A stretch of DNA of 27,030 nt from a virus: the IMG/VR virus record IMGVR_UViG_3300032331_003377, positions 1 through 27,030 of that record; one strand, written 5' to 3'. Numbering within the stretch: position 1 is the first letter of the stretch; the number at the start of each line of letters is the position of its first letter. The position numbers and the translations under genes are program-made. The notes beneath the pieces are model-generated. The model ran no database searches and was not told the DNA's origin. It saw nothing but the letters and a program-made list of their open reading frames with translations. This document shows, in pieces, positions 1,199 through 26,210 of the stretch.

Positions 1199-1717
1199 AT
1201 GGCTACATTTAAAATAAAGCTTGAGGATAAAGCTGCTTTTTTGAATCGCATGGAAAAACAAGGCGAGACTATTAGTAGTGAGCAGATTAAAGATAATAAA
1301 CTTGAAGATTATTTTGAAGTTGATATTATCAATCCTAAGCAATTAGAAGTAGCTAAAGTAATTTTAAAGAAATCCCCAAAAATAAACACAATAAAAGAAA
1401 TGAAAAAGAAATTAACTAAGGATCAACTAAAAGAAATGATCCGTCAAGAATTATCAGGTGTAATAGCTGAAAAAAAGAAAATGAAGGATGTAGATAAAAA
1501 ACAAAAATTAGATGAAATGAGTTTAGGTGGTATTGATTTAAATCAATTACTTAATATGACAGATCATGAATTAGGAGTTTTTATAGCTGGTGTATCTACA
1601 ATTTTAGGTGTAGGTGGTCTTTTAGGTGGTGCTTTTATTAAAGATTTTAGAAATAAAATTAAAAGCGGTGAAATTAAATCTAAAGAAGATGTTATTGATG
1701 CTGTTGAAAACAAATAA
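1199..1717 (+). CDS. Hypothetical membrane-anchored protein, 172 aa
   Basis: The product has three visible parts. Residues 1-60 are a mixed alpha/beta-looking, charged N-terminus. Residues 62-106 form a Lys-rich helical segment containing KKLTKDQLKEMIRQEL, a type of segment I have seen in other phage small proteins but cannot tie to a function. Residues 125-147 are a Gly-rich hydrophobic stretch (ELGVFIAGVSTILGVGGLLG) that looks like one membrane segment, followed by a charged tail. The gene stands alone: a motif copy precedes it and a good terminator follows 24 bases after its stop, so it is probably a single-gene transcription unit. No family recognised. Confidence 0.7.
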   Translation: MATFKIKLEDKAAFLNRMEKQGETISSEQIKDNKLEDYFEVDIINPKQLEVAKVILKKSPKINTIKEMKKKLTKDQLKEMIRQELSGVIAEKKKMKDVDKKQKLDEMSLGGIDLNQLLNMTDHELGVFIAGVSTILGVGGLLGGAFIKDFRNKIKSGEIKSKEDVIDAVENK

Positions 1718-1738: not shown

Positions 1739-1807
1739 GTAGGGCGTCTTGAAAAAGATGCCCTTCTTCTTTGGAAGTATAAAATTTCTTCCGTAACTTC
1801 GCCCTAC
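1739..1807 (+). other. Alternative RNA fold overlapping the terminator
   Basis: GTAGGGCG (1739-1746) is exactly complementary to CGCCCTAC (1800-1807). If these pair, they close a three-way arrangement with a small hairpin TCTT-GAAA-AAGA (1747-1758) and a hairpin GGAAG/CTTCC (1773-1777 with 1788-1792). This fold uses the same bases as the left arm of the terminator hairpin, so the two are mutually exclusive. It may be a structured leader or small RNA, or chance. The complementarity is seen; the function is inferred. Confidence 0.35.
1741..1772 (+). terminator. Rho-independent terminator
   Basis: AGGGCGTCTT (1741-1750) pairs over all ten positions, with one G-U wobble, with AAGATGCCCT (1755-1764) across a GAAA tetraloop. 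It is followed by the pyrimidine run TCTTCTTT. It lies 24 bases after the stop at 1717 in DNA otherwise very poor in G and C. It probably ends the transcript of the 172-residue protein and insulates the next gene. Confidence 0.75.
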
Positions 1808-1809
1808 GA

Positions 1810-1859
1810 GGGTTAGGGGAATGAGGGAATAAGAGAGCGCCGAGGGGTTGGGGAACGGG
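1810..1859 (+). other. G-rich tract with six G-runs, possible G-quadruplex or RNA element
   Basis: Runs of three or four G occur at 1810-1812, 1816-1819, 1824-1826, 1844-1847, 1850-1853 and 1857-1859. Bases 1801-1860 contain 29 G and 8 C (62% GC by hand count) in a genome of roughly 25-30% GC. The strand is strongly purine-biased and no coding frame is evident. The tract lies between a terminator and the next motif copy, so it would be in an untranscribed gap or a leader. Two groups of three runs are separated by 17 bases, so a single compact four-run G3 quadruplex would need one long loop; two-layer forms are also possible. Confidence 0.55.
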
Positions 1860-1868
1860 AAGTAGCAT

Positions 1869-1876
1869 ATATTTAT
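1869..1876 (+). promoter_or_regulatory. nATATTTAT start-proximal motif, copy 2
   Basis: TATATTTATA precedes the ATG at 1892 with 15 bases between the core and the ATG, and is followed by TATAAACA as in copy 1. It lies directly after the G-rich tract and downstream of a terminator, where a new promoter is needed, which strengthens the promoter reading. Confidence 0.4.
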
Positions 1877-1891
1877 ATATAAACATATATT

Positions 1892-2089
1892 ATGAAATAC
1901 AAAAACAACGTTGCCGAAAAATTAACACAATTAGAAGCAACAGCAAACAGAATTCAATTTCAAGTAAATAGAAACGCTGATCAAGATTCAACTTTAGAAT
2001 CTGTTAGTGATTTAAAAGAACAAATTGAAAAAATTCAAGAAATGATTTCTTTAGAACAAGACGATTTTGCTCAACAATTTAATGGGTAA
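1892..2089 (+). CDS. Small coiled-coil protein, 65 aa
   Basis: A 65-residue acidic protein made almost entirely of predicted helix. Heptad-like spacing of Leu/Ile/Val is visible in KLTQLEATANRIQFQV and in VSDLKEQIEKIQEMISL, separated by a polar break around residues 28-35 (NADQDSTL). The C-terminus is short and polar (QQFNG). No known family is recognised. It is followed after two bases by a membrane protein gene and then by the late sigma factor, so the three may be co-transcribed from the motif at 1869. An oligomeric or scaffolding role would be guesswork. Confidence 0.6.
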   Translation: MKYKNNVAEKLTQLEATANRIQFQVNRNADQDSTLESVSDLKEQIEKIQEMISLEQDDFAQQFNG

Positions 2090-2091
2090 TT

Positions 2092-2364
2092 ATGATGTGG
2101 ATTTGGTTAGTAATAATTCATCTAATTGAGATTATAGGAATAGGAATATTTTTTCTTATTAGACGTAATAATGTACTAGAAAAAGCAGTTATTGATCAAC
2201 AGCAATATATTGATGCCATTAGTATAATAATTGCTGATTCTGATATGCGTTTAAGAGAACTAGATACTATGGGTGCTTTTGAATCTGATGATGAAGTAGG
2301 TACCTTCTTTAAAAATCTAAGAGAAATACAAACTAGCATCAGTCAATTTAATAATAGAAAATAA
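2092..2364 (+). CDS. Small single-pass membrane protein, 90 aa
   Basis: Residues 3-23 are strongly hydrophobic and are followed directly by Arg-Arg (IRRNN), indicating an N-terminal membrane anchor with the rest probably in the cytoplasm. The remainder is helical and ends with an acidic motif, GAFESDDEVGTFFKNL, followed by a short helix. My recollection is that an ESDDEVG-type motif occurs in hypothetical proteins of other T4-like marine phages, but I could not check this. ATG codons at 2092 and 2095 are both possible starts. It sits between the coiled-coil gene and the sigma factor gene. Function unknown. Confidence 0.65.
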   Translation: MMWIWLVIIHLIEIIGIGIFFLIRRNNVLEKAVIDQQQYIDAISIIIADSDMRLRELDTMGAFESDDEVGTFFKNLREIQTSISQFNNRK

Positions 2365-2417
2365 TTTGGTTATGTGATTTTTCTCCCGTATATTGGGATT
2401 AAAAATAGGAAATCACA

Positions 2418-10656: not shown

Positions 10657-10991
10657 TGTCTAAAATACCAATACAAAAAACCGTATTTAGTAAAGATTCT
10701 TATAGCAGGCTAGTTAATACCCAATTTAGCCAGTTATTAAATCAAGGAGTTGTAGAAGAAACACCAACTTTTACAATTGATGATTTTTTTAGACTATATA
10801 ATCAGTTATTTTATCAAATGCCTAGAGAAGGAGATACTAATTCCCATATGGCTCTTTTAAAAAGAGAAGCTGATTATTTAGGTATTAGTATATCTCAAGA
10901 TGATATTCAAGCTTTGTTAGATGAAATTACATCATTACGTCAACAATTGCTTGATACACAAACAACAGTAAATGAATTGATTAAACAATAA
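10656..10991 (+). CDS. Small helical virion-operon protein, 111 aa
   Basis: Residues 1-40 are polar and Lys/Gln-rich. Residues 40-80 contain an aromatic-rich helix (FTIDDFFRLYNQLFYQMPRE), and 81-111 form a coiled coil (DDIQALLDEITSLRQQLLDT) ending NELIKQ. Both ends overlap neighbours by one base (TAATG at 10654 and 10989), so it is translated together with the DNRLRE-like protein and the 1340-residue protein. A linker or oligomerisation role between them is plausible but inferred. No family recognised. Confidence 0.65.
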   Translation: MSKIPIQKTVFSKDSYSRLVNTQFSQLLNQGVVEETPTFTIDDFFRLYNQLFYQMPREGDTNSHMALLKREADYLGISISQDDIQALLDEITSLRQQLLDTQTTVNELIKQ

Positions 10992-13900
10992 TGGCGGATA
11001 ATATTAAAATAGTAGGTAATATTGTAGAGGTCCAACAGATATCTCGTTATTCTGAGGAAGATCTTAGGTTACTTGCTACTCAAGTTATAAAAGAAGATTT
11101 TGGAAAACAAAATGATTATATTGAATATTTTGTTTATGACGCTGGCAAAAATCTTTTAGATACAAATTATAGCTATAAAGATTTTAAATTACCTACTACT
11201 TCTTATATAGATCCTGTTAGTGGAACTTTACCTATTATAGAAATAGATCCTGTTATGGATCTACAAAATTTGGGCTACTCATCAGGAGAATTTATAGTTC
11301 AGTATAATTTTCTAAACAATAAAATTTCAAATTCAACTCAAACAGGATTATTTTTAAAAGAAATATCTCCTGATAGAACTGAAATAAGAATAGGATCTAC
11401 TGTATTAACTAATGAGCAAATTGAAAGTGGATCTTTAGCTCTTATAAGTGAGGCTTCTAGTTCTTCATATTTTGTTGATTATCTTGTTGATTTTGGAAAT
11501 AATATACAAGCGGTAACAGTAAATACTGCCTTAAATAAAGTTGAAACTGGATATGAAATTTTATTTAAGTTATACCAACCATTACCCCCCGAAATTCAGG
11601 AAAAATCTACATTGTGGGTTGTAAAAGAAAAGGTAACTCCTTATTCTTTTAATATTAATTTAGACAAACTTATTACACCCGCTCCAGGTCCTCAATTAAG
11701 AGGTCCTAATTTTGATATAGATGTACCTAATAGAAATAATGTAGGTACTTCTTACCAAACCTATGGTGGGTTATTAGATAATCTTAAAAATGTATCATCC
11801 TCATATCAACAACTTTTAAGTATTATTACTTCACAAAGTATTGATATTAATACAGATTATAGTGATTTTAATAACTTTGTATTTTTTAGCTCAGCTAAAC
11901 AAAGAGTTGTTAATTTTTACAATAAAGTAAAAGAAATTGAAGATTTAAAAAATACGTTAATAACTTATACTCCATTAACATCTAGCTATCCCAACTTAAT
12001 TACTGATTATAACTTAGTAACATCTAGTATTAATAATATTATAGCTAATTTTGATGGATTTGAATATTATCTGTACTTTGAAAGTGGATCTTTAACTTCT
12101 TCTTTAAATTATGGTATAACACCATATCCTAAAACTAATTCGTTAAAACCATTTCCTTTACAATCAACAGGTTCTGTTTCATCTTCTTTATGGTTTAATA
12201 AATCAACTTCTAGTGCTGCTGATTATGACAGTTATAATCAAAATAATTTAATTTATACTGTACCTACCTTTATTAAGGATGATGGTAATAATGATCAATA
12301 TATTACTTTCCTTAATATGATTGGTCATTATTTTGACAATATTTGGATATTTTTAAGTGCGGTTACTGATATTAATCTAGCAAATAATAATTTAGAACAA
12401 GGTATATCTAAAGATTTAGTATACACTACATTACAGTCCTTAGGAACTAAACTATATAATCGATACGGAAATTCAAATAATACTTTATTTTTAGTAGGTA
12501 GTAATGGTAGTTCTAGTTTTGATAATAATTTTACTCCTACAGGTTCTTATTTAAATGCAATTCCACGTAAAGATTTACTTGCTGAAACTTATAAACGTAT
12601 TTATCATAATTTACCTTTGTTATTAAAAACTAAAGGTACAACTTATGGATTACAAACATTAATTTCTACCTTTGGAATTACTGGTAGTATATTAAGTGTT
12701 AAAGAATATGGTGGTGATTTAAAAAGCCAAATGTTAGATGAATATAATAACGATAAGGTTAGAATAATATCTTCTAGCATAGTAACAGGTAGCGTCTTAT
12801 CACCTTATATTAGCTTATTAGTACAGCCTACATCTTCAACTCAATTTAGAAGAGATGATTTACATTATTTAGATATTTCATTCTCTCCTGAAACTCAAAT
12901 TGACACTTATGCTTCTGCTTCTATAGTTAAAGCTAATCCAACTTGGAGTCTAGATGATTATATAGGTGATCCTAGACAATTATATAGTGCTTCTTATAAT
13001 GATTTAAATACTCAAAGAAATACCTATTATAATTTTACAGCATCAAATATGGACTATGCCGGATTTATTCGCTTAATCCAGTTTTTTGATAATTCATTAT
13101 TTAAAATGATAAAAGATTTTGTTCCTGCAAGAACAAATCTTTCAACTGGTATTACAATTAGTTCTCCTGTATTAGAAAGAAATAAATGGGTATATGCTAA
13201 CCCATCCACTACAGGTAAATTAGGAGTAATGGATGCTAATTTAAAAGGTCCATCAATTAGTACTCAATATACAAGCTTATATACTTATTTAACAGGAAGT
13301 AAAGTAGCATATTATACAGGACAATTTAGTGGAAGTATAATTAATTATGGTAATAGTTGGATAGAAAACAATTTTAATCCTTATTTGCACCCTTCTTCTA
13401 GCTTAACAGATAATGATATCAATGTATTTAATCATTCTGAATATAATGTATTATTAAATAATGTATCTGCAAGTAGATTATCTCTTCTTAGGCAAGATAT
13501 AGAGTATGTATATGGCACTTCAAATAGCATATTAACTCCTGCTTATTTACAAGATTCAAATGAATCTCTTACTACATATCAAAGATCAAGATATGATGGG
13601 GCTAAAGTAGTTAGTTTACAATATAATACCTACACTAGCGGAGCTTATACAGGATCAGATGGAAATTTTATTCAAAGTAGTATTGATTACAATGGTGATT
13701 ATTCATATGGTAAAACAGCAGCAATTGACAAATTAGTAAGACAATTAGGACTATTTACTTTAATAGAAACTTCTTCATATCTTCCTGGGCGCAATAGGGT
13801 AGCTTTAAAATATCTTGTAGATGAATTTGGAGGATTAACAGAATTAAATCAACGTAATAAACATTGGGAAGATATACAAAGAATATTTCTTGCTGGTGAT

Positions 13901-15013
13901 TATTTAAATATTTCTCAATTTGATAATCAACAATCAAGTAATCAAAAAACAACAGATGGTAATAAATTAATTTTTAATAGTGGGTATAGTTATTCACCTA
14001 TACTTTATTTTTCTAGTTGTAGTGTTGATCCTACTATTTATTTTGAAAATTTAGGAGCCATTAATTATTATATAGCAACTGCTAATAATTTTAGTTCATC
14101 TTATTATCTTAGTGGATCTTCTAATAATATTATTGGATTTCCTATAAGTGAAAGTTATGTTACTAATATATTTAACCATGCTATAATAGGTCCTTCATTC
14201 TTTTATACATCGTCTTTAACATCACCCCCAACATATTCGGCCCAACAAACAGAAAACTATCTTGTGAATGCTGGATTTGATATGAATGTTGTTATAGCTG
14301 ATGGACAATACCTTACTGGGTCTTTGCAATTATTTAAAAATGGAGTTTTATATGCTACTGCAAGTCAAATATTTGGCCAACCAGTAACACCAACACCATC
14401 CATTACACCATCAATAACACCTACTAGAACCCCATCTGTAACACCATCATTATCAGTAGGAGCATCTTCACCAGTAACACCTACAACAACACCATCAACA
14501 ACAAAAACTCAAACACCTACAGCAACACCTTCTAAAACAACAACAGCTACACCATCATTAACACCATCAATAACAGTTTCTACATCAGTTTCTGCAACAC
14601 CTCCATCAACACCAGCAGTAACATCAACACCAAGTCCATCTGTGTCATCTGCAGCTGCGTCACCAACCCCATCACCTTCAACTGTACCAAGTACATTTAC
14701 GGTTAACGTTTATGGAAAAAGAGCTGGTGTTATAACCTACTTATTTGGTAACCTTGGCTCATCTAGTATGACTTTAATAGGAACTTTAACCGCTGGAGGT
14801 ACACTTAAAAAGACATGGACTGGAGTTACTTCTGGAGATATAGTATATCTTGTATGTACTGATGGTAGTGGAGATGCTGCGACAGGAGTATGTGAAACTG
14901 GAGCTCAGGAAGGATCTTATCCAACAGCAGGTACTTGCCAGGCATATTTATCTTTTGTTATAACAGCAAATACAAACATATATGTTTATGGAAATGCAGC
15001 TAACTTGTGTTAA
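10991..15013 (+). CDS. Giant baseplate wedge/adhesin protein with mucin-like stalk and Cys-containing tip
   Basis: The longest protein here (1340 aa). A block at about 536-570, YHNLPLLLKTKGTTYGLQTL followed by FGITGSILSVKEYGG, contains the Lys-Gly-Thr (548-550) plus Gly-Leu pattern seen in tail protein I-like wedge proteins. This suggests the N-terminal half is the gp7/gpI-type wedge partner of gp6, which is an inference. Residues 570-1130 are beta-rich and Ser/Tyr/Asn-heavy. Residues about 1131-1234 are an almost pure Thr/Pro/Ser stalk. The last about 105 residues form a compact beta domain (FTVNVYGKRAGVITYLFGNL onward) with Cys at 1289, 1301, 1316 and 1340, the last residue. The layout suggests a receptor-binding tip on a flexible stalk. 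Gene and operon overlap the preceding small gene by one base. Confidence 0.72.
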   Translation: MADNIKIVGNIVEVQQISRYSEEDLRLLATQVIKEDFGKQNDYIEYFVYDAGKNLLDTNYSYKDFKLPTTSYIDPVSGTLPIIEIDPVMDLQNLGYSSGEFIVQYNFLNNKISNSTQTGLFLKEISPDRTEIRIGSTVLTNEQIESGSLALISEASSSSYFVDYLVDFGNNIQAVTVNTALNKVETGYEILFKLYQPLPPEIQEKSTLWVVKEKVTPYSFNINLDKLITPAPGPQLRGPNFDIDVPNRNNVGTSYQTYGGLLDNLKNVSSSYQQLLSIITSQSIDINTDYSDFNNFVFFSSAKQRVVNFYNKVKEIEDLKNTLITYTPLTSSYPNLITDYNLVTSSINNIIANFDGFEYYLYFESGSLTSSLNYGITPYPKTNSLKPFPLQSTGSVSSSLWFNKSTSSAADYDSYNQNNLIYTVPTFIKDDGNNDQYITFLNMIGHYFDNIWIFLSAVTDINLANNNLEQGISKDLVYTTLQSLGTKLYNRYGNSNNTLFLVGSNGSSSFDNNFTPTGSYLNAIPRKDLLAETYKRIYHNLPLLLKTKGTTYGLQTLISTFGITGSILSVKEYGGDLKSQMLDEYNNDKVRIISSSIVTGSVLSPYISLLVQPTSSTQFRRDDLHYLDISFSPETQIDTYASASIVKANPTWSLDDYIGDPRQLYSASYNDLNTQRNTYYNFTASNMDYAGFIRLIQFFDNSLFKMIKDFVPARTNLSTGITISSPVLERNKWVYANPSTTGKLGVMDANLKGPSISTQYTSLYTYLTGSKVAYYTGQFSGSIINYGNSWIENNFNPYLHPSSSLTDNDINVFNHSEYNVLLNNVSASRLSLLRQDIEYVYGTSNSILTPAYLQDSNESLTTYQRSRYDGAKVVSLQYNTYTSGAYTGSDGNFIQSSIDYNGDYSYGKTAAIDKLVRQLGLFTLIETSSYLPGRNRVALKYLVDEFGGLTELNQRNKHWEDIQRIFLAGDYLNISQFDNQQSSNQKTTDGNKLIFNSGYSYSPILYFSSCSVDPTIYFENLGAINYYIATANNFSSSYYLSGSSNNIIGFPISESYVTNIFNHAIIGPSFFYTSSLTSPPTYSAQQTENYLVNAGFDMNVVIADGQYLTGSLQLFKNGVLYATASQIFGQPVTPTPSITPSITPTRTPSVTPSLSVGASSPVTPTTTPSTTKTQTPTATPSKTTTATPSLTPSITVSTSVSATPPSTPAVTSTPSPSVSSAAASPTPSPSTVPSTFTVNVYGKRAGVITYLFGNLGSSSMTLIGTLTAGGTLKKTWTGVTSGDIVYLVCTDGSGDAATGVCETGAQEGSYPTAGTCQAYLSFVITANTNIYVYGNAANLC
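14381..14692 (+). repeat. Degenerate ACA-CCA-TCA repeat coding for the Thr/Pro/Ser stalk
   Basis: About 312 bases are built from short imperfect in-frame repeats based on ACACCATC(A), for example CCATCATTAACACCATCAAT. They encode TP/TPS/SP runs with scattered Val, Ala and Lys. There is no regular spacer, so this is low-complexity coding sequence. Its C content is far above that of the flanking coding DNA, and it can expand, contract or recombine. Confidence 0.85.
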
Positions 15014-18852: not shown

Positions 18853-20109
18853 ATGAATACTATTTTTATTTCTATAGCATCCTATAGAGATCCTGAATTA
18901 TTATCTACACTACGTGATTGTATTAATAATGCTAGTTATCCTGAAAATCTAACATTTGGTATAGCTTGGCAACACAATATTGAAGATAAATGGGATACTC
19001 TAGATGACTTTAAAAATAACTCTAGATTTAAAATTATTGATATTGACTATAAAGATTCTAAAGGTACTTGTTGGGCTAGAAATAAAATTCAAGAACTATG
19101 GAATAATGAGACTTATTATTTACAATTAGATTCACATCATCGTTTTACCAAAGGTTGGGATACAACACTAATTGAACTACTAGAACAACTTAAAACTCAA
19201 CACCCAAAACCTCTTTTAACAGCCTATTTACCAGGATTTTTTCCTAATAATGATCCTGCAGGCAGAGTTAATGAATGTTGGAATTTAGAATTTGATAGAT
19301 ATATGCCTGAAGGACCTATATTTATAAAACCTCATACTCTTGAAAATTGGGAAAAATATAATTCCCCTATCCCAACAAGATTTATCTCAGCTCATTTTAT
19401 TTTTACTTTAGGTAAATGGGCTGAAGAGGTAAAATATGACCCTTATTTTTACTTTCATGGTGAAGAACCTTCATTAGCTGCTAGATCTTATACATATGGT
19501 TATGATTTATTTCAACCTCATAAACCCATTATATGGCATGAATATACTAGAAATGGTAAAATAAAACAATGGGATGATGATAAAGAATGGACAGAAAAAA
19601 ATAAAATATCATATTCTAGATATAGAGCATTACATGGAATGGGTAATGTAATTGAAGGTACAACTACTGATTTGTTTAAAAAATATGGTTGGGGAAAAGA
19701 ACGTACTTTAGAAGAATATGAAAAATACGCTGGGGTTAAATTTGTTACAAAACAAGTCCATCGACATACAGCAGAATATAAATTACTACCTGTACCTCAA
19801 GATGATTTTGAAAAAAATTTACTTAATAGAATTAAAGTTTGTATTGATGTTTGGAAAGGAGCTTTAACTGAAACTGATTATGATACTTTTGCTGTAGCAA
19901 TTTTAGATAAAGAGGGGAATGATATTTTTAGACAAGATATGGATATGGATGAATTTAATAAATTATTAAATTTAGATCCACAAGATCAATTCATTCATAT
20001 TTGGAGAGAATATGATGATGATAAACAACCTTCTTTTTGGAGAGTATGGCCACATAGTATTTCAAAAGGATGGGCTGACAGAATAGAAAACAATATACCT
20101 TATGAATAA
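18853..20109 (+). CDS. GT60-like glycosyltransferase (GlcNAc-transferase family), copy 1
   Basis: A 418-residue protein with the hallmarks of the GlcNAc/GT60 family (relatives of the Skp1 hydroxyproline GlcNAc-transferase). IFISIASYRDPELLSTLRDC (4-23) is followed by FGIAWQHN, CWARNKIQELW (73-83), and the metal/nucleotide-binding motif QLDSHHRFTKGWD (91-103), with Asp93 in a D-S-H triad replacing the usual DxD. A second conserved stretch near 202-235 includes GEEPSLAARSYTYGYDLF. The C-terminal 100 residues are a separate module found also in the next gene. It most likely transfers a sugar (GlcNAc by family precedent) to an unknown acceptor in the cytoplasm; there is no signal or membrane segment. 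It overlaps the next gene by 8 bases. Confidence 0.8.
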   Translation: MNTIFISIASYRDPELLSTLRDCINNASYPENLTFGIAWQHNIEDKWDTLDDFKNNSRFKIIDIDYKDSKGTCWARNKIQELWNNETYYLQLDSHHRFTKGWDTTLIELLEQLKTQHPKPLLTAYLPGFFPNNDPAGRVNECWNLEFDRYMPEGPIFIKPHTLENWEKYNSPIPTRFISAHFIFTLGKWAEEVKYDPYFYFHGEEPSLAARSYTYGYDLFQPHKPIIWHEYTRNGKIKQWDDDKEWTEKNKISYSRYRALHGMGNVIEGTTTDLFKKYGWGKERTLEEYEKYAGVKFVTKQVHRHTAEYKLLPVPQDDFEKNLLNRIKVCIDVWKGALTETDYDTFAVAILDKEGNDIFRQDMDMDEFNKLLNLDPQDQFIHIWREYDDDKQPSFWRVWPHSISKGWADRIENNIPYE

Positions 20110-21349
20110 AAAAGAAACTATATTAGTTCACCTACCAGCATATAGAGATCCTGAATTGATTCCTACAATAAAGGATGCATTACAACAGGCTAAATATCCT
20201 GAAAGAATACATTTTGGTATTTGTAGACAATATCATCCTGATGATAAATTTGATGATTTATCTGAATATAAAGAAGATAAACGTTTTAAGATATATGAAT
20301 GTCTGTATGATGAAGCTAAAGGCTTACCTTGGGCTCGATCAATTATTAACGAGCAACTATTAACTGATGAAGACTATATTTGTCAATTAGATTCACATCA
20401 TCGTTTTGCTCCTGAGTGGGATGAAATCCTAATTGAAATGCATAATAATTTAGAAAAAAAAGGATATAAACCCATTATAGCAGGATATTCTCCCCTATAT
20501 GATCCTTTTAATGACCCAGCAGGGCGTTCAATGGAACCTTGGCAATCACAATTTGTATGTTTTTACCCTCATGGAACTATCTTTATTAGACCAGGTTTAT
20601 TACATGGATATCAAGATATGACTGAACCACCAATGTCAAGATTTTTGTGTGGACATTTTGATTTTGCTAGATCAGAATGGGCAAAAGAAATTAAACATGA
20701 TCCTGATATTTATTTTAGTGGAGAAGAAATAAATCTTACTGTTCGTTCTTATACTCATGGTTATGATATATTTCATCCTCATAAAATAGTTGTTTGGCAT
20801 TCTACAATGCGTGAAGAAAGATCTGGTATGTTAAAATGGGACGATGATGCTAAATTAGGAGTTGATTGGTGGGGTAAACAAGAAAAAGCCCGGGCTAAGA
20901 TTAGACAATTACTTCGTGTTGAAAATAATGGATTTGATTTAACAGGATATGATTTAGGAACAGTTAGAACAATAGAAGACTATGAAAAATATGCTGGTGT
21001 TAATTTTAAAACTAAATCAGTACAAAAATATACTATAAATAATGGGTATCCTGCTACACCTATAGATAGTCCTTGGCTTAAATCTTTTTATTATTTAGTT
21101 ACTATATATAGACGTGAATTACCTGAAAATGATTATTCATCTATATTAGTAGCATTTGATGATGAAAATGGAATAGGTATTTATTCTAAAAATATAGAAG
21201 GACAAGAATTACAAAATTTTTTAAATAATGAAGGTCCAATTCATTATGAAGAAATGTTTCAATATATAGATAAAGAACCAACTAGAATGGTAGCATGGGC
21301 CTATAGTGAAGAAAGAGGATGGACTGAAAGAATAGAACATAAAATATGA
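20102..21349 (+). CDS. GT60-like glycosyltransferase, copy 2 (paralogue)
   Basis: A 415-residue tandem paralogue of the preceding gene. Matching blocks are LPAYRDPELIPTIKDAL (11-27), FGICRQYH, LPWARSIINEQ, QLDSHHRFAPEWD (95-107) with Asp97, and SGEEINLTVRSYTHGYDIF. The C-terminal modules also align (EDYEKYAGVNFKTKSVQKYT against EEYEKYAGVKF in copy 1; RGWTERIE against KGWADRIE). The N-terminal acceptor-side segments have diverged, so the two may add successive sugars. Its start lies inside the last codons of copy 1 and its stop overlaps the next start (ATGA at 21346), so the cassette is translationally coupled. Confidence 0.8.
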   Translation: MNKKETILVHLPAYRDPELIPTIKDALQQAKYPERIHFGICRQYHPDDKFDDLSEYKEDKRFKIYECLYDEAKGLPWARSIINEQLLTDEDYICQLDSHHRFAPEWDEILIEMHNNLEKKGYKPIIAGYSPLYDPFNDPAGRSMEPWQSQFVCFYPHGTIFIRPGLLHGYQDMTEPPMSRFLCGHFDFARSEWAKEIKHDPDIYFSGEEINLTVRSYTHGYDIFHPHKIVVWHSTMREERSGMLKWDDDAKLGVDWWGKQEKARAKIRQLLRVENNGFDLTGYDLGTVRTIEDYEKYAGVNFKTKSVQKYTINNGYPATPIDSPWLKSFYYLVTIYRRELPENDYSSILVAFDDENGIGIYSKNIEGQELQNFLNNEGPIHYEEMFQYIDKEPTRMVAWAYSEERGWTERIEHKI

Positions 21350-22278
21350 AGACAAAATTAGTAACAAGTTATTATGCTTTTCATAGTGGTGAACCCTATT
21401 GGGGACAAAATGGAAGAGATAGATGGTACAAGTATTCTTTAGCTTGTCTTTGTGAAATGGGAATAGATATAGTTTGCTATACAGATATAGAAAATCTAGG
21501 TTATAATCAATTAATAGAATTAAAAGAAAAATTTAAACTAGATAATTTAACTATTAAAATCTATAATTTAGCTAATAATCCCTATCAAGAACGAGTTTAT
21601 AAAATTAGAAAAGCCAGCGAAGAAAAATATAATAGCCCGGAATCATGGCATTACTATACAAGATCACCACAGATTTATTGGATGAAATACCATTTTTTAG
21701 AAATGGAATATGAACCTAATATTAATTTATATTGGATTGATGCAGGATTATCTCATACAGGATTATTTCCTTTATTTACTAGTAAATATTATGAAGTAGA
21801 AGGATATAAAAATTACTATCAAAACCATCCTGATGGATTTATGTTACACGAACATGAGTATTATTGGTTTGATAAGGCCTTTACACCATTAACTATAAAG
21901 AGAATTAATAATTTTGCAAACAAAAAAATTGTTAACTTATATAGACATGGAGTAACAGATAATAATTTTGGTGAGTTTAATGAGAATCTAAAAGAACAAG
22001 TAGATTATGAAAATATATTTGTAGTAGCAGGTTTTTTTGGAGGTGATTCTAACTTAATGATACATTATATACAAGATTCAAAATATATAATAGAAAAATG
22101 TTTATCAACAGAAAATTATATATGTACAGAACAAGAAATCATGACCTATTTAAACGCAAAAGATAGAAGTAAATTTACTAATTTTAGATTTGATACTTTT
22201 TACCATGAAGAATGTATCGATATATATAAACCAGATATGATATCATTTTCTCATTTTTTTACTAAAGATTTAAAATAA
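21346..22278 (+). CDS. HtrL/YibB-like putative glycosyltransferase
   Basis: A 310-residue protein with features of the HtrL/YibB (WlaTC-like) family. An N-terminal strand LVTSYYAFH is followed by a long Tyr/Trp-rich segment and YTRSPQIYWMKYHFLEMEYE. The key motif YWIDAGLSHTG lies near 128-138, with the family's Trp-(I/L)-Asp-Ala-Gly; then VVAGFFGGDSNLMIHYIQDS and a Glu-Gln pair in TEQEIMTYL. The family is implicated in lipopolysaccharide/lipooligosaccharide assembly and is predicted to be glycosyltransferases; a reaction is not established for most members. A related domain is fused in the 23907 gene. Coupled to the upstream GT by an ATGA overlap; 10 bases precede the carbamoyltransferase. 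Confidence 0.65.
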   Translation: MKTKLVTSYYAFHSGEPYWGQNGRDRWYKYSLACLCEMGIDIVCYTDIENLGYNQLIELKEKFKLDNLTIKIYNLANNPYQERVYKIRKASEEKYNSPESWHYYTRSPQIYWMKYHFLEMEYEPNINLYWIDAGLSHTGLFPLFTSKYYEVEGYKNYYQNHPDGFMLHEHEYYWFDKAFTPLTIKRINNFANKKIVNLYRHGVTDNNFGEFNENLKEQVDYENIFVVAGFFGGDSNLMIHYIQDSKYIIEKCLSTENYICTEQEIMTYLNAKDRSKFTNFRFDTFYHEECIDIYKPDMISFSHFFTKDLK

Positions 22279-22288
22279 TAAAACAATA

Positions 22289-23914
22289 ATGGCAAATATA
22301 GCTTTTTATGGATCTCATAATGCATCATATGCAGTTGAAGAAAATGGGGAAATACTTTTAATATTAGAATTAGAAAGATTTCTTAATGAAAAAAATATTG
22401 GTTTAGCTCAATATAAATGCCCTAAAACAGAAGATATACTTTTCTTTGCTAAATATATTCCTAAATGGATAATGAATAAATTAAACATAACAGAATTTGA
22501 AAATTGCTATCATTTAAATTCTGATGTTATTATATATGAAAAACATTTTTTAGAACATGAAATCCCTGCTAAAAACTACATTCATAGCTTACATCATGAA
22601 GCCCATGCTGCTGGATGTTTCTATCAGTCTCCTCATCAAGAAATGTTAGTATTTTCTTTTGATGGAGGGGGTAATGATGGAAAATTTAATATTTACCATT
22701 GTATTAGAGGAGAATCACCTAAGTTATTAGAAGCAGTTCTTAATCCTATTAATCGAATTAATTTTGAATATTATGATTTAGGATTTCCTTATATGGTAAT
22801 TGGTCATTATTTAGATGATATTAAATATCAAGACTTAGGAACAGGAAATCTAGTATACCCTGGTAAGTTAATGGGTTTATCTTCTTATGGTAAAGTTAAA
22901 AATGAATGGTTACCTGCTTTTTTAAACTTTTACAAAAGTGACCCCAATGGATTAAATTACCAGGAAAAAATAAATGTATTAGGCGAAGCAATTAATATTA
23001 TTTTTGATCAAGAAAATAGAATAAAAGGAGAAACAGCTTGGGATATAGCTGCAACTTCACAAAGAGCATTTGAAGATAGTTTTTTAGAAATAGCTTTACC
23101 ATATATGAATCAATTTCCAAATTTACCTATTGGTATAGCTGGAGGGTGTGGTTTAAATATTTTATTAAATACTCGTTTAGTTGAGGAATTTGATAAAGAA
23201 GTGTTTGTAGGTCCTGATCCGAATGATTGTGGTATAGCATTAGGATTATTATTAAATCATTTAAAACCTGAAAAACCATTTGATAGCACATATTTAGGTA
23301 CTACTTTACTAGATTTAGATAATTTAACAAATTATATTCAAAATATTTTTCATAACGGTACTTCAAATTATTTAAATGAAGAAACATTAATAGATGATTT
23401 AGTAGATGGAAAAATAGTAGGAATAGCTAGAGGTAGAGCAGAACATGGTCCTAGAGCTTTAGGTAATCGAAGTATATTGTGCAACCCTTTTCTTACTGAA
23501 ATGAAATCTATATTAAATGAAAAAGTAAAACATAGAGAGTGGTATAGACCCTTCGCACCAGTAGTTAGATTAGAAGATGTAAATAAATATTTTGAATGGA
23601 ATAAAGAATCTAGATGGATGAGTTTTTGTCCTAAAGTAAAAGAAGAATGGAAAGATAGATTAAGTGCTATTACTCATATTGATGGAACTGCTAGAATTCA
23701 AACAGTAACTAAAGAACAAAATGAGTGGTTATATAACTTAATAACTAAATTTGAAGAAAAAACAGGGATTGGTGTATTATTAAATACATCTTTTAATGTT
23801 GATGGTAAACCTATATTATCAACTGCTAAAGATGCTCTTACTATACTAAGTACAACAGATATGGATTGTCTTGTTATTGAAAATTATTATTTTAAAAAAA
23901 TACAAAATGGGTGA
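22289..23914 (+). CDS. NodU/TobZ-type O-carbamoyltransferase
   Basis: A 541-residue protein with full-length family architecture. The N-terminal Kae1/ASKHA-like domain begins IAFYGSHNASYAVEENGE (4-21), has ELERFLNEKN, the metal-binding HHEAHAAGCFYQSP (102-115) with His102/His103/His106, and FSFDGGGNDG (122-131). The C-terminal domain carries GIARGRAEHGPRALGNRSIL (about 378-397), VKHREWYRPFAPVV and LNTSFNVDGKPILST. Members use carbamoyl phosphate and ATP to place a carbamoyl group on a hydroxyl, usually of a sugar (Nod factors, antibiotics). Here the substrate is probably a sugar added by the neighbouring transferases. Phage homologues are also known beside DNA-hypermodification genes. It overlaps the next gene by 8 bases. 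Confidence 0.88.
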   Translation: MANIAFYGSHNASYAVEENGEILLILELERFLNEKNIGLAQYKCPKTEDILFFAKYIPKWIMNKLNITEFENCYHLNSDVIIYEKHFLEHEIPAKNYIHSLHHEAHAAGCFYQSPHQEMLVFSFDGGGNDGKFNIYHCIRGESPKLLEAVLNPINRINFEYYDLGFPYMVIGHYLDDIKYQDLGTGNLVYPGKLMGLSSYGKVKNEWLPAFLNFYKSDPNGLNYQEKINVLGEAINIIFDQENRIKGETAWDIAATSQRAFEDSFLEIALPYMNQFPNLPIGIAGGCGLNILLNTRLVEEFDKEVFVGPDPNDCGIALGLLLNHLKPEKPFDSTYLGTTLLDLDNLTNYIQNIFHNGTSNYLNEETLIDDLVDGKIVGIARGRAEHGPRALGNRSILCNPFLTEMKSILNEKVKHREWYRPFAPVVRLEDVNKYFEWNKESRWMSFCPKVKEEWKDRLSAITHIDGTARIQTVTKEQNEWLYNLITKFEEKTGIGVLLNTSFNVDGKPILSTAKDALTILSTTDMDCLVIENYYFKKIQNG

Positions 23915-26210
23915 TTTATTTACACTAGTAGAAAAATATGGTACTGATAAATCACTAAGTGGTTATACGTTTACTTATTCTGATCTATTTACTCCTATAA
24001 AAGATCAAATAACATCAGTTTTAGAAATAGGAATAGGTACTTTAAATCCTAAAATTCCAAGTTCTTTTTTTGGCAACACTCAACATTTTGATTATTATGA
24101 ACCTGGTGGGTCTTTAAAAGTATGGAGAGATTTTTTTTCAAATGCTACTGTTTATGGTGTTGATATAGCTAAAGATTGTATGTTTGAAGAAGAAAGAATT
24201 AAAACTTTTTTATTTGATTCTTCTGAAAGTGAATATACTGATTATTATTTAAATGATTTAACATTTGATATTATTATTGATGATGGAAACCATGACCCAA
24301 AATACCAGGTTAAAACATTAAAAAATTTATTCCCAAAATTAAACAAAAATGGTTACTATATTATAGAAGATATTGGAGGTTACCCAGGTACCGAAGAATT
24401 ATTAATAGAATATTTAGATGAATTTAATTTAGTAACTAAAGGATATCAAGTTACAAATAAAGGAAATCACATTGTTATACAAAAAACAAAGTTACAAGAT
24501 ACAATACCTACTAGTAATGAAAGTATTACATTAGTAACAGGATTATGGAATATAAATAGACCGGGAAGAGATTTTGATCATTATATTGAAAACTTTAAAA
24601 AATTCCTAGATATTCCCCTTAATATGTTTATTTACATACCAGCTAAATATGAATATTTAGTATGGGAAAAAAGGTCTAAAGAAAATACATTTGTTAAAGT
24701 ATATGAATTAGATGATATAAAAACTTTATATAGTCCTTTTTGGGATAAAACTCAACAAATAAGAACTAATCCTGAATGGTATAATCAAACGGGAGAAAAT
24801 GGATGGTTAGTAGGATCACCACAAGCACACTTAGAATGGTATAACCCAATAGTACAATCAAAAATGTTTATGCTAAATGATGCTACTATATGGAATCCCT
24901 TTAATAATGAATATTTTGTATGGTTAGATGCAGGTATTACAAATACAGTATATGAAAAATATTTTACTGATGATAAGGCTTTAGATAAAATAATACCTCA
25001 TTTAGACACATTTTTATTTTTAAGTTATCCATATGAAGCTTCAAGTGAAATTCATGGATTTAATTTTAAAGCAATAAACCGCTTTGCAGGTAAAAAAGTA
25101 AAATATGTTTGTCGAGGTGGATTATTTGGAGGAAGAAAAGAAATAATTAATCAAGCTAATGGTTTGTATTATTCTTTACTTGAAAATACCTTAGGAGAAG
25201 GATATATGGGTACTGAAGAAAGTATTTTTACTATTATGTCTTATAACGAGCCTGAAAAATATAGACGTTATGCTTTAGATGGAAATGGACTAGTTGTTAA
25301 ATTCATCCAAGCATTATTAGAAGATAAAGTTGAGCTAGAGCCTATACCTAAAAATAGAGTATTTTTAAAACCTAAAAATTTAAATACATCTAAATTAAAA
25401 ACCTCCCTATACATGCTCACCTTCAACTTCCCAGAACAAGTTGAGCACACAATAAAAACATGGAATGACAGCTCTTCAGATTGGCTTTTAAAACCGCATA
25501 AAAAAATATTAATTGATAATTCTAATAAACCCGAAGCAATAGAAGGTAATAAATTAATTTGTGAAAAATATGGTTTTGAACATATAATAACAGGGGAAAA
25601 TTTAGGTATTAATAGAGGTAGACAATATGCTGCTGAACATTTTGATAAATCAGATAGTGATTTTTATTTTTTCTTTGAGGATGATATGGGACTTTATTCA
25701 TCTGTTGAAGATGGCGTTTGTAGGAATGGATTTAAAAAACATATGCCTAATCTATATGATACCGTTCACAAAATTATGCTAAAAGAAGATTTTGATTTTT
25801 TAAAACTATCTTTTACTGAGGTCTATATGGATAATAATATTCAAGTATCATGGTATAACGTGCCTCAAAATATTAGAACCGAAATGTGGCCTAAATACGA
25901 TAAATTACCTATCCAGGGTATAGATCCTAACGCTCCTAGAACTAAATTTAAACATATTGACGTACTTAATGAGTTAAGTTATATATCCGGAGACATATAT
26001 TATGCTAATTGGCCTATGATAGTTAGTAGAGAAGGTAATAGAAAAATGTTTTTAGATACAACATGGGCTTATCCTTATGAACAAACATGGATGTCACATA
26101 TGTTTCAAGAAACAGTTCAAGAAAATATTAAACCAGCTGTTTTACTTGCTTCTCCAATTTGCCATAATAGAATATCTCATTATAAAGCAGAAGAAAGACG
26201 AGAAAACTAA
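23907..26210 (+). CDS. Three-domain methyltransferase-HtrL-like-glycosyltransferase fusion
   Basis: A 767-residue protein from the ATG at 23907. An earlier in-frame ATG at 23871 would add 12 residues that fit neither the family N-terminus nor the tight gene overlap. Residues 1-195 are a class I SAM methyltransferase of the macrocin/MycE-like sugar O-methyltransferase type: EKYGTDKSLSGYTFTYSDLF, SVLEIGIGT (37-45), VYGVDIA (82-88), DIIIDDGNHDP (121-131). Residues about 206-480 are HtrL/YibB-like (ITLVTGLWNINRPGRDF; FVWLDAGITN near 338). Residues about 497-767 are a GT-A-like transferase (SLYMLTFNFPEQVEHTIKTW; KKILIDNSNK; ENLGINRGRQYAAEHF; FFFEDDMG near 588 with the DxD-like acid pair). It probably adds and methylates a sugar on the same glycan. 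Confidence 0.78.
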   Translation: MGDLFTLVEKYGTDKSLSGYTFTYSDLFTPIKDQITSVLEIGIGTLNPKIPSSFFGNTQHFDYYEPGGSLKVWRDFFSNATVYGVDIAKDCMFEEERIKTFLFDSSESEYTDYYLNDLTFDIIIDDGNHDPKYQVKTLKNLFPKLNKNGYYIIEDIGGYPGTEELLIEYLDEFNLVTKGYQVTNKGNHIVIQKTKLQDTIPTSNESITLVTGLWNINRPGRDFDHYIENFKKFLDIPLNMFIYIPAKYEYLVWEKRSKENTFVKVYELDDIKTLYSPFWDKTQQIRTNPEWYNQTGENGWLVGSPQAHLEWYNPIVQSKMFMLNDATIWNPFNNEYFVWLDAGITNTVYEKYFTDDKALDKIIPHLDTFLFLSYPYEASSEIHGFNFKAINRFAGKKVKYVCRGGLFGGRKEIINQANGLYYSLLENTLGEGYMGTEESIFTIMSYNEPEKYRRYALDGNGLVVKFIQALLEDKVELEPIPKNRVFLKPKNLNTSKLKTSLYMLTFNFPEQVEHTIKTWNDSSSDWLLKPHKKILIDNSNKPEAIEGNKLICEKYGFEHIITGENLGINRGRQYAAEHFDKSDSDFYFFFEDDMGLYSSVEDGVCRNGFKKHMPNLYDTVHKIMLKEDFDFLKLSFTEVYMDNNIQVSWYNVPQNIRTEMWPKYDKLPIQGIDPNAPRTKFKHIDVLNELSYISGDIYYANWPMIVSREGNRKMFLDTTWAYPYEQTWMSHMFQETVQENIKPAVLLASPICHNRISHYKAEERREN

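Follow-up and report, generated by a model that had tools for sequence, protein, structure and literature searches.

What is a strongly G-rich tract doing in the genome of an AT-rich phage, and which of its properties are retained when its sequence changes? The window analyzed here, that is, the whole stretch of DNA under study (a 27,030-base IMG/VR virus record), contains 29 G and 8 C between positions 1801 and 1860. It also holds six runs of three or four G (1810-1812, 1816-1819, 1825-1827, 1844-1847, 1850-1853 and 1857-1859), which are grouped as two clusters of three. The number of G and the six runs within 1810-1859 given in an initial annotation were both exact on recount, and the strand bias it described is supported. 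When the window was resampled 300 times with a Markov-1 model and both strands were scored, no 60-mer exceeded 27 G and no 50-mer exceeded five G-runs, compared with 30 and six in the window, so that the tract is a genuine compositional extreme of the window. It is also non-coding, as initially described: no ORF of at least 60 aa extends over it, and no upstream ORF is conserved in relatives, where frames and lengths differ and the number of ATG triplets is about that expected by chance.

The features of the locus are compiled in the following table.

Features of the G-rich locus; coordinates refer to the window
Feature	Position	Strand	Remarks
Upstream gene (ORF)	1199-1717	+	Before the hairpin
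Terminator-like hairpin closing ORF 1199-1717	1741-1764	+	10-pair stem, 5 G-C pairs
Bacteroidota sigmaA-type promoter	1770-1801	+	Sequence match; TTTGG at 1770-1774, -7 box TAACTTCG at 1794-1801
G/A-rich, C-poor tract	1806-1862	+	About +1 to +57 of the predicted transcript
AT block with late-promoter-like motif	1866-1890	+	ATATTTAT at 1869-1876; imperfect palindrome; 90% A+T
65-aa small ORF (MKYKNN...), conserved	1892-2089	+	First gene behind the leader
90-aa ORF	2092-2364	+	Second gene; N-terminal hydrophobic stretch
Second sigmaA-type promoter	2365-2396	+	TTTGG...TATATTGG; precedes the sigma-like gene
Sigma-factor-like protein, 257 aa	2418-3191	+	PHROG, Foldseek

A hairpin similar to that preceding the promoter was seen in several close relatives. 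Neither the 65-aa nor the 90-aa ORF matched any PHROG or Pfam family, and the second promoter is followed by a short leader without a G tract. With regard to the third gene, 7 of 13 members of its family matched the PHROG for RNA polymerase sigma factor weakly, and the top Foldseek matches of its structural model, which is of moderate confidence (pLDDT 71), were mostly sigma factors, none of them significant (best E 0.13). The sigma assignment is no more than probable; the protein is a candidate for a late sigma factor of the phage, with a role like that of gp55. Baseplate-like genes are located downstream in the window. Through this gene, the cultured Flavobacterium phage immuto (L244; T4-like annotations) was recognized as a distant relative (46% identity). 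Immuto also carries annotated 7-deazaguanine DNA modification genes (QueC, QueD, QueE, QueF, FolE and DpdA). Just upstream of the module, a T5orf172/MUG113-domain protein (GIY-YIG-like) is encoded on the opposite strand (385-906).

In the initial annotation, the tract was placed between a strong terminator and a promoter-like motif. Both flanks were recovered, but a promoter situated between the hairpin and the tract had been missed, and hence the tract lies downstream of a promoter and not only upstream of one. The -7 box of this promoter deviates at one position from the flavobacterial consensus TAnnTTTG, which occupies -12 to -5 (PMC9723704), and the required upstream TTTG is present. Furthermore, TTTGG and the TA..TT of the -7 box are invariant or nearly so across 51 aligned relatives. 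Setting the -7 box at -12 to -5 predicts A1806 as the +1 position, where the host polymerase would initiate an RNA beginning with ACGAGGGUUAGGGG... Most likely, then, the tract is a transcribed 5' leader. Its predicted length is 86 nt, with the six G-runs falling at +5 to +54; the median flavobacterial leader measures 24 nt (PMC9723704).

Relatives were gathered by searching with the sigma-like protein, the upstream protein and the promoter pattern. The 65-aa ORF family was found behind such a promoter in 87 distinct sequences. Of these, at least 54, mostly from uncultured T4-like phages, combined a long leader (at least 76 nt) with the AT block and retained the order promoter, tract and AT block, the tract being G/A-rich and 50-70 nt long. 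The tract is therefore not isolated, as had been proposed, since the same place is occupied in all these relatives, and its presence in independent contigs also excludes an assembly artefact of this one contig. Every element found was located upstream of the 65-aa ORF family, an association that is partly due to the design of the search, which was anchored at the ORF locus or at the promoter pattern. Deeper relatives mostly had short leaders with neither tract nor AT block. Among the closer ones, L202 possesses the tract without the AT block, and in L017, L018, L019 and L022 the promoter, AT block and ORF are intact and the tract is shortened to about 30 nt. These last four are natural deletion variants and useful as controls. 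In G005 (132 kb) no such tract was detected at the locus or elsewhere, so that relocation of the tract within this genome was discarded. A blastn search against phage DNA records returned nothing similar to the region and, as the open literature searched yielded no description of the element for T4-like Bacteroidetes phages, it is apparently undescribed in those papers.

We then compared how the individual parts of the element evolve. A cleaned set of 47 loci was used for the folding, identity and shuffle tests; minus-strand matches, which arose by chance from the near-palindromic AT block, have a slight diluting effect on the averages of the four-run-motif survey. The promoter core and the AT block are near invariant among 51 non-redundant aligned sequences. 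Over 1081 pairs of long-tract sequences, mean identity was 0.76 for the promoter, 0.54 for the tract and 0.96 for the AT block, and 0.60 for the third codon positions of the ORF. The composition of the tract stayed within narrow limits in the 47 loci (69-88% purine, 25-52% G and 0-13% C, with means of 77% purine and 7% C). The tract thus changes at about the pace of nearly free sites while keeping its composition, and the simplest reading of these alignments is that selection acts on composition. In addition, G-runs of at least three averaged 4.30 against 2.49 in composition-matched shuffles and exceeded expectation in 43 of the 47 loci, with L030-L032 having few to almost no G-runs. In the comparison with relatives proposed in the initial annotation, neither absence nor random variation of the tract in close relatives was found: the exact G-runs vary, but the tract stays rich in purines, low in C and clustered in G. 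Chance, an assembly artefact or inherited neutral sequence would each have to explain a tract unmatched in 300 resamplings, present in at least 54 distinct sequences on separate contigs, and holding its composition while sequences diverge to about 50% identity, and we regard this group of explanations as highly improbable.

The clustering of G-runs beyond composition and the high G4Hunter values of the tract would be consistent with a G-quadruplex switch, formed by the leader RNA or the displaced strand of the DNA and controlling expression of the early operon, as the initial annotation had suggested among other functions. A canonical quadruplex motif, defined as four runs of at least three G with loops of 1-7, was nevertheless present in only 15 sequences; in most loci, and also in the window, four runs separated by short loops are missing. 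ViennaRNA with quadruplexes enabled predicted one in 34% of the loci versus 20% of their shuffles, and predicted none in the window, although 48% of the window's own shuffles gave one. With L030-L032 almost devoid of G-runs as well, a quadruplex switch does not hold as a conserved property, and we consider it an improbable function of the tract. We conclude that the tract is real and conserved and is not primarily a quadruplex. A possible bearing of modified guanine (DpdA/TGT) on quadruplexes was also considered and dropped, as a TGT-family gene was absent from five large related contigs.

A structured RNA of the Watson-Crick type, another of the functions initially proposed, was not substantiated either. 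The consensus RNA fold comprised only the AT palindrome, with no pair showing compensatory change, and Rfam yielded no match at the gathering score and nothing relevant at relaxed thresholds. On the contrary, the leader was less stably folded than shuffled versions of itself in 39 of the 47 loci (mean difference 1.9 kcal/mol, ViennaRNA). This weak folding leads to the main rival of the reading that we prefer below, namely that an unstructured purine leader acts on the mRNA, the C-poor tract keeping the 86-nt early leader unpaired. Such a leader could serve ribosome access or mRNA stability, or provide a site for a single-strand RNA-binding protein of phage or host, which might be encoded by the operon itself. 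The constant position of the tract ahead of the 65-aa ORF family fits this proposal, and so does flavobacterial translation, which proceeds without Shine-Dalgarno pairing and responds to the structure of the mRNA (PMC6847099). However, what is known to act positively in Flavobacterium is adenines close to the start codon and not distal G-runs (PMC6847099). Moreover, G-richness is an odd route to unpairedness in a genome of about 28% GC, where an A-rich leader would suffice, the clustering of G-runs is superfluous for it, and deeper relatives have the same ORF behind leaders of 15-40 nt. We therefore judge an effect on the mRNA rather unlikely, while keeping it as the nearest alternative; if true, it would represent an unusual early phage leader in bacteria whose translation dispenses with Shine-Dalgarno pairing.

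As G clusters are reported to initiate R-loops (Roy and Lieber, as cited in PMC4489302), and a transcript of AGGAG repeats forms R-loops in an orientation-dependent manner (PMC3770058), the propensity of the tract for RNA:DNA hybrids was evaluated. The difference between RNA:DNA and DNA:DNA energies was estimated from nearest-neighbour tables. By this measure, the tract was the best site of its own locus in most loci and the best ORF-free site in two contigs of 155-169 kb; the sense RNA gains 14.3 kcal/mol and the antisense RNA loses 7.6. The tract had no advantage over shuffles, and thus its hybrid energy follows from composition alone. We also applied the QmRLFS initiation-zone rule (three runs of at least three G or two runs of at least four G, gaps of 1-10 and at least 50% G). 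The only two matches in the window, on either strand, lie in the tract, which in this respect resembles the G-clustered R-loop sequences of the QmRLFS model. An initiation zone was present in 27 of the 47 relatives' tracts. Unlike in full QmRLFS sequences, an elongation zone (100 nt or more with a G content of 40% or higher, within 50 nt) is not expected because the downstream DNA is AT-rich (about 30% G+C).

The AT block lies within the least stable, most easily melted 0.04% of the window's 30-bp stretches. The promoter-like motif noted there initially proved to be real, as its core is enriched upstream of genes in related genomes. In three related contigs (G001-G003), TATTTAT occurred at most 60 bases upstream of 29 of 179, 27 of 164 and 42 of 185 ORFs, against about 5, 5 and 9 expected, which corresponds to an approximately five-fold enrichment. 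The idea that the AT block is a motif unique to the element was consequently rejected, since ATATTTAT is common ahead of genes; an extended version, TATTTAT-n-ATAAAC (gap 1-4), appeared just 1-3 times per contig. Between the tract and the AT block, L044, L120 and L147 contain CAAACGTTTG-like palindromic stretches, and the leader of L057 (804-940) contains nested inverted repeats, ATGTTTGGT...ACCAAACAT. The repeats in these four loci are possibly protein-binding.

Another alternative is that the region controls the late promoter, with the tract, chiefly its 3' part GGGAAC-GGAAA, binding a factor or shaping the DNA beside ATATTTAT. The retention of GGGAACxxAAA in the shortened L017-L019 and L022, and also in L032, is in line with such a role, as is the conservation of the AT block, which here is far above what the motif itself needs. 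Other late-promoter-like sites in the same genomes, however, have no purine tract, and most of the tract turns over freely, so that this control function seems to us even less probable than a quadruplex switch.

Taken as a whole, the sequence evidence leads us to favor, tentatively, a leader that forms a promoter-proximal R-loop and possibly primes replication in the manner of T4 oriF. The preference arises from the combination, within 125 bp, of a promoter, a purine RNA with clustered G and easily melted DNA, as in oriF and oriG, and from the known ability of purine transcripts to form R-loops. Under this R-loop reading, a clade of T4-like Bacteroidota phages would share an early operon with the tract as its promoter-proximal 5' leader, and selection would keep the leader RNA purine-rich, C-poor, G-clustered and unpaired instead of maintaining one fixed sequence. 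The nascent purine RNA would re-anneal to the pyrimidine-rich template behind the polymerase, giving rise to a short R-loop adjoining the easily melted AT block, with the displaced G strand perhaps engaged in hybrid RNA:DNA quadruplex contacts. Its most specific use would be that of an R-loop origin of the oriF kind, in which the RNA serves as leading-strand primer and which would be shut when transcription from the adjacent late promoter takes over. A replication-related role, also listed in the initial annotation, is possible. What the sequences establish is where the tract lies, that it is conserved, its composition and G clustering, its weak Watson-Crick folding and the promoter motifs on either side; transcription, the R-loop and the priming of replication are inferred from these. 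The fully specified version is doubtful: a single-copy R-loop replication origin in uncultured T4-like Bacteroidota phages, where the G-clustered, composition-selected purine leader makes the hybrid and the adjacent late promoter acts as both unwinding element and off-switch.

According to a T4 replication review (PMC3016281), oriF and oriG span about 100 bp and consist of a promoter and an A+T-rich unwinding element, the transcript forming an R-loop that primes the leading strand, and their promoters are shut off by late transcription. The element studied here similarly combines a compact promoter and an easily melted A+T-rich element within about 100 bp in a T4-like phage. A promoter directed into the element is present by sequence in the 51 aligned relatives, and an A+T-rich stretch (90%) follows downstream, except in L202. 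It differs in that oriF and oriG have MotA-dependent middle promoters, whereas the promoter here is of the host sigmaA type; oriE is reported with an early promoter in the same review (PMC3016281). The passages of the review consulted describe no G/A tract, while one is present here. The review also places a skew shift or a divergence of transcription near oriE, oriF and oriG, with oriA and oriC outside such regions (PMC3016281). No such signature was found at our element: in three contigs of 155-183 kb there was neither a strand switch nor an origin-like skew inversion, the genes being co-directional, and a skew shift downstream is opposite in sign to that expected of a rightward fork. GC skew was hence set aside as evidence for an origin. 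Also counted against the R-loop reading are the relatives without a full tract (L017, L018, L019, L022 and G005) and L202, which lacks the AT block, together with the scarcity of G-runs in L030-L032, the presence of an initiation zone in just 27 of 47 tracts and a hybrid energy no better than that of shuffles. Four of five related contigs encode a 5'-3' exonuclease belonging to a broad class able in principle to process a primer of this sort, a point in favor; RNase HI was looked for and not found, a point against.

The arrangement of a promoter followed by a G-rich transcribed stretch is likewise found in human mitochondrial CSB II and in ColE1 RNA II, neither of whose primers is related in sequence to the element. 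The ColE1 primer region is a structured RNA, in contrast to the leader here, which avoids Watson-Crick structure. ColE1 uses an R-loop primer; the present element is at most a candidate site for such priming or for termination. In the case of CSB 2, the RNA makes a hybrid quadruplex with the nontemplate strand (PMC5027508). The sequence rules for R-loop formation at a phage origin are posed as an open question in the T4 replication review (PMC3016281). Some 50 aligned elements, with drifting sequence but fixed purine content, C-poverty and G clustering, constitute a test set for such rules.

Elsewhere in the window, several other regions were recorded. Positions 10991-15013 encode a 1340-aa structural-type ORF whose C-terminal part is Ser/Thr/Pro-rich and repetitive, with a higher local G+C. 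Behind the structural genes, ORFs resembling glycosyltransferases, together with a methyltransferase-like domain, were recognized by eye at 18853-26210, and a carbamoyltransferase-like protein (22289-23914, also by eye) lies within the glycosyltransferase-like run.
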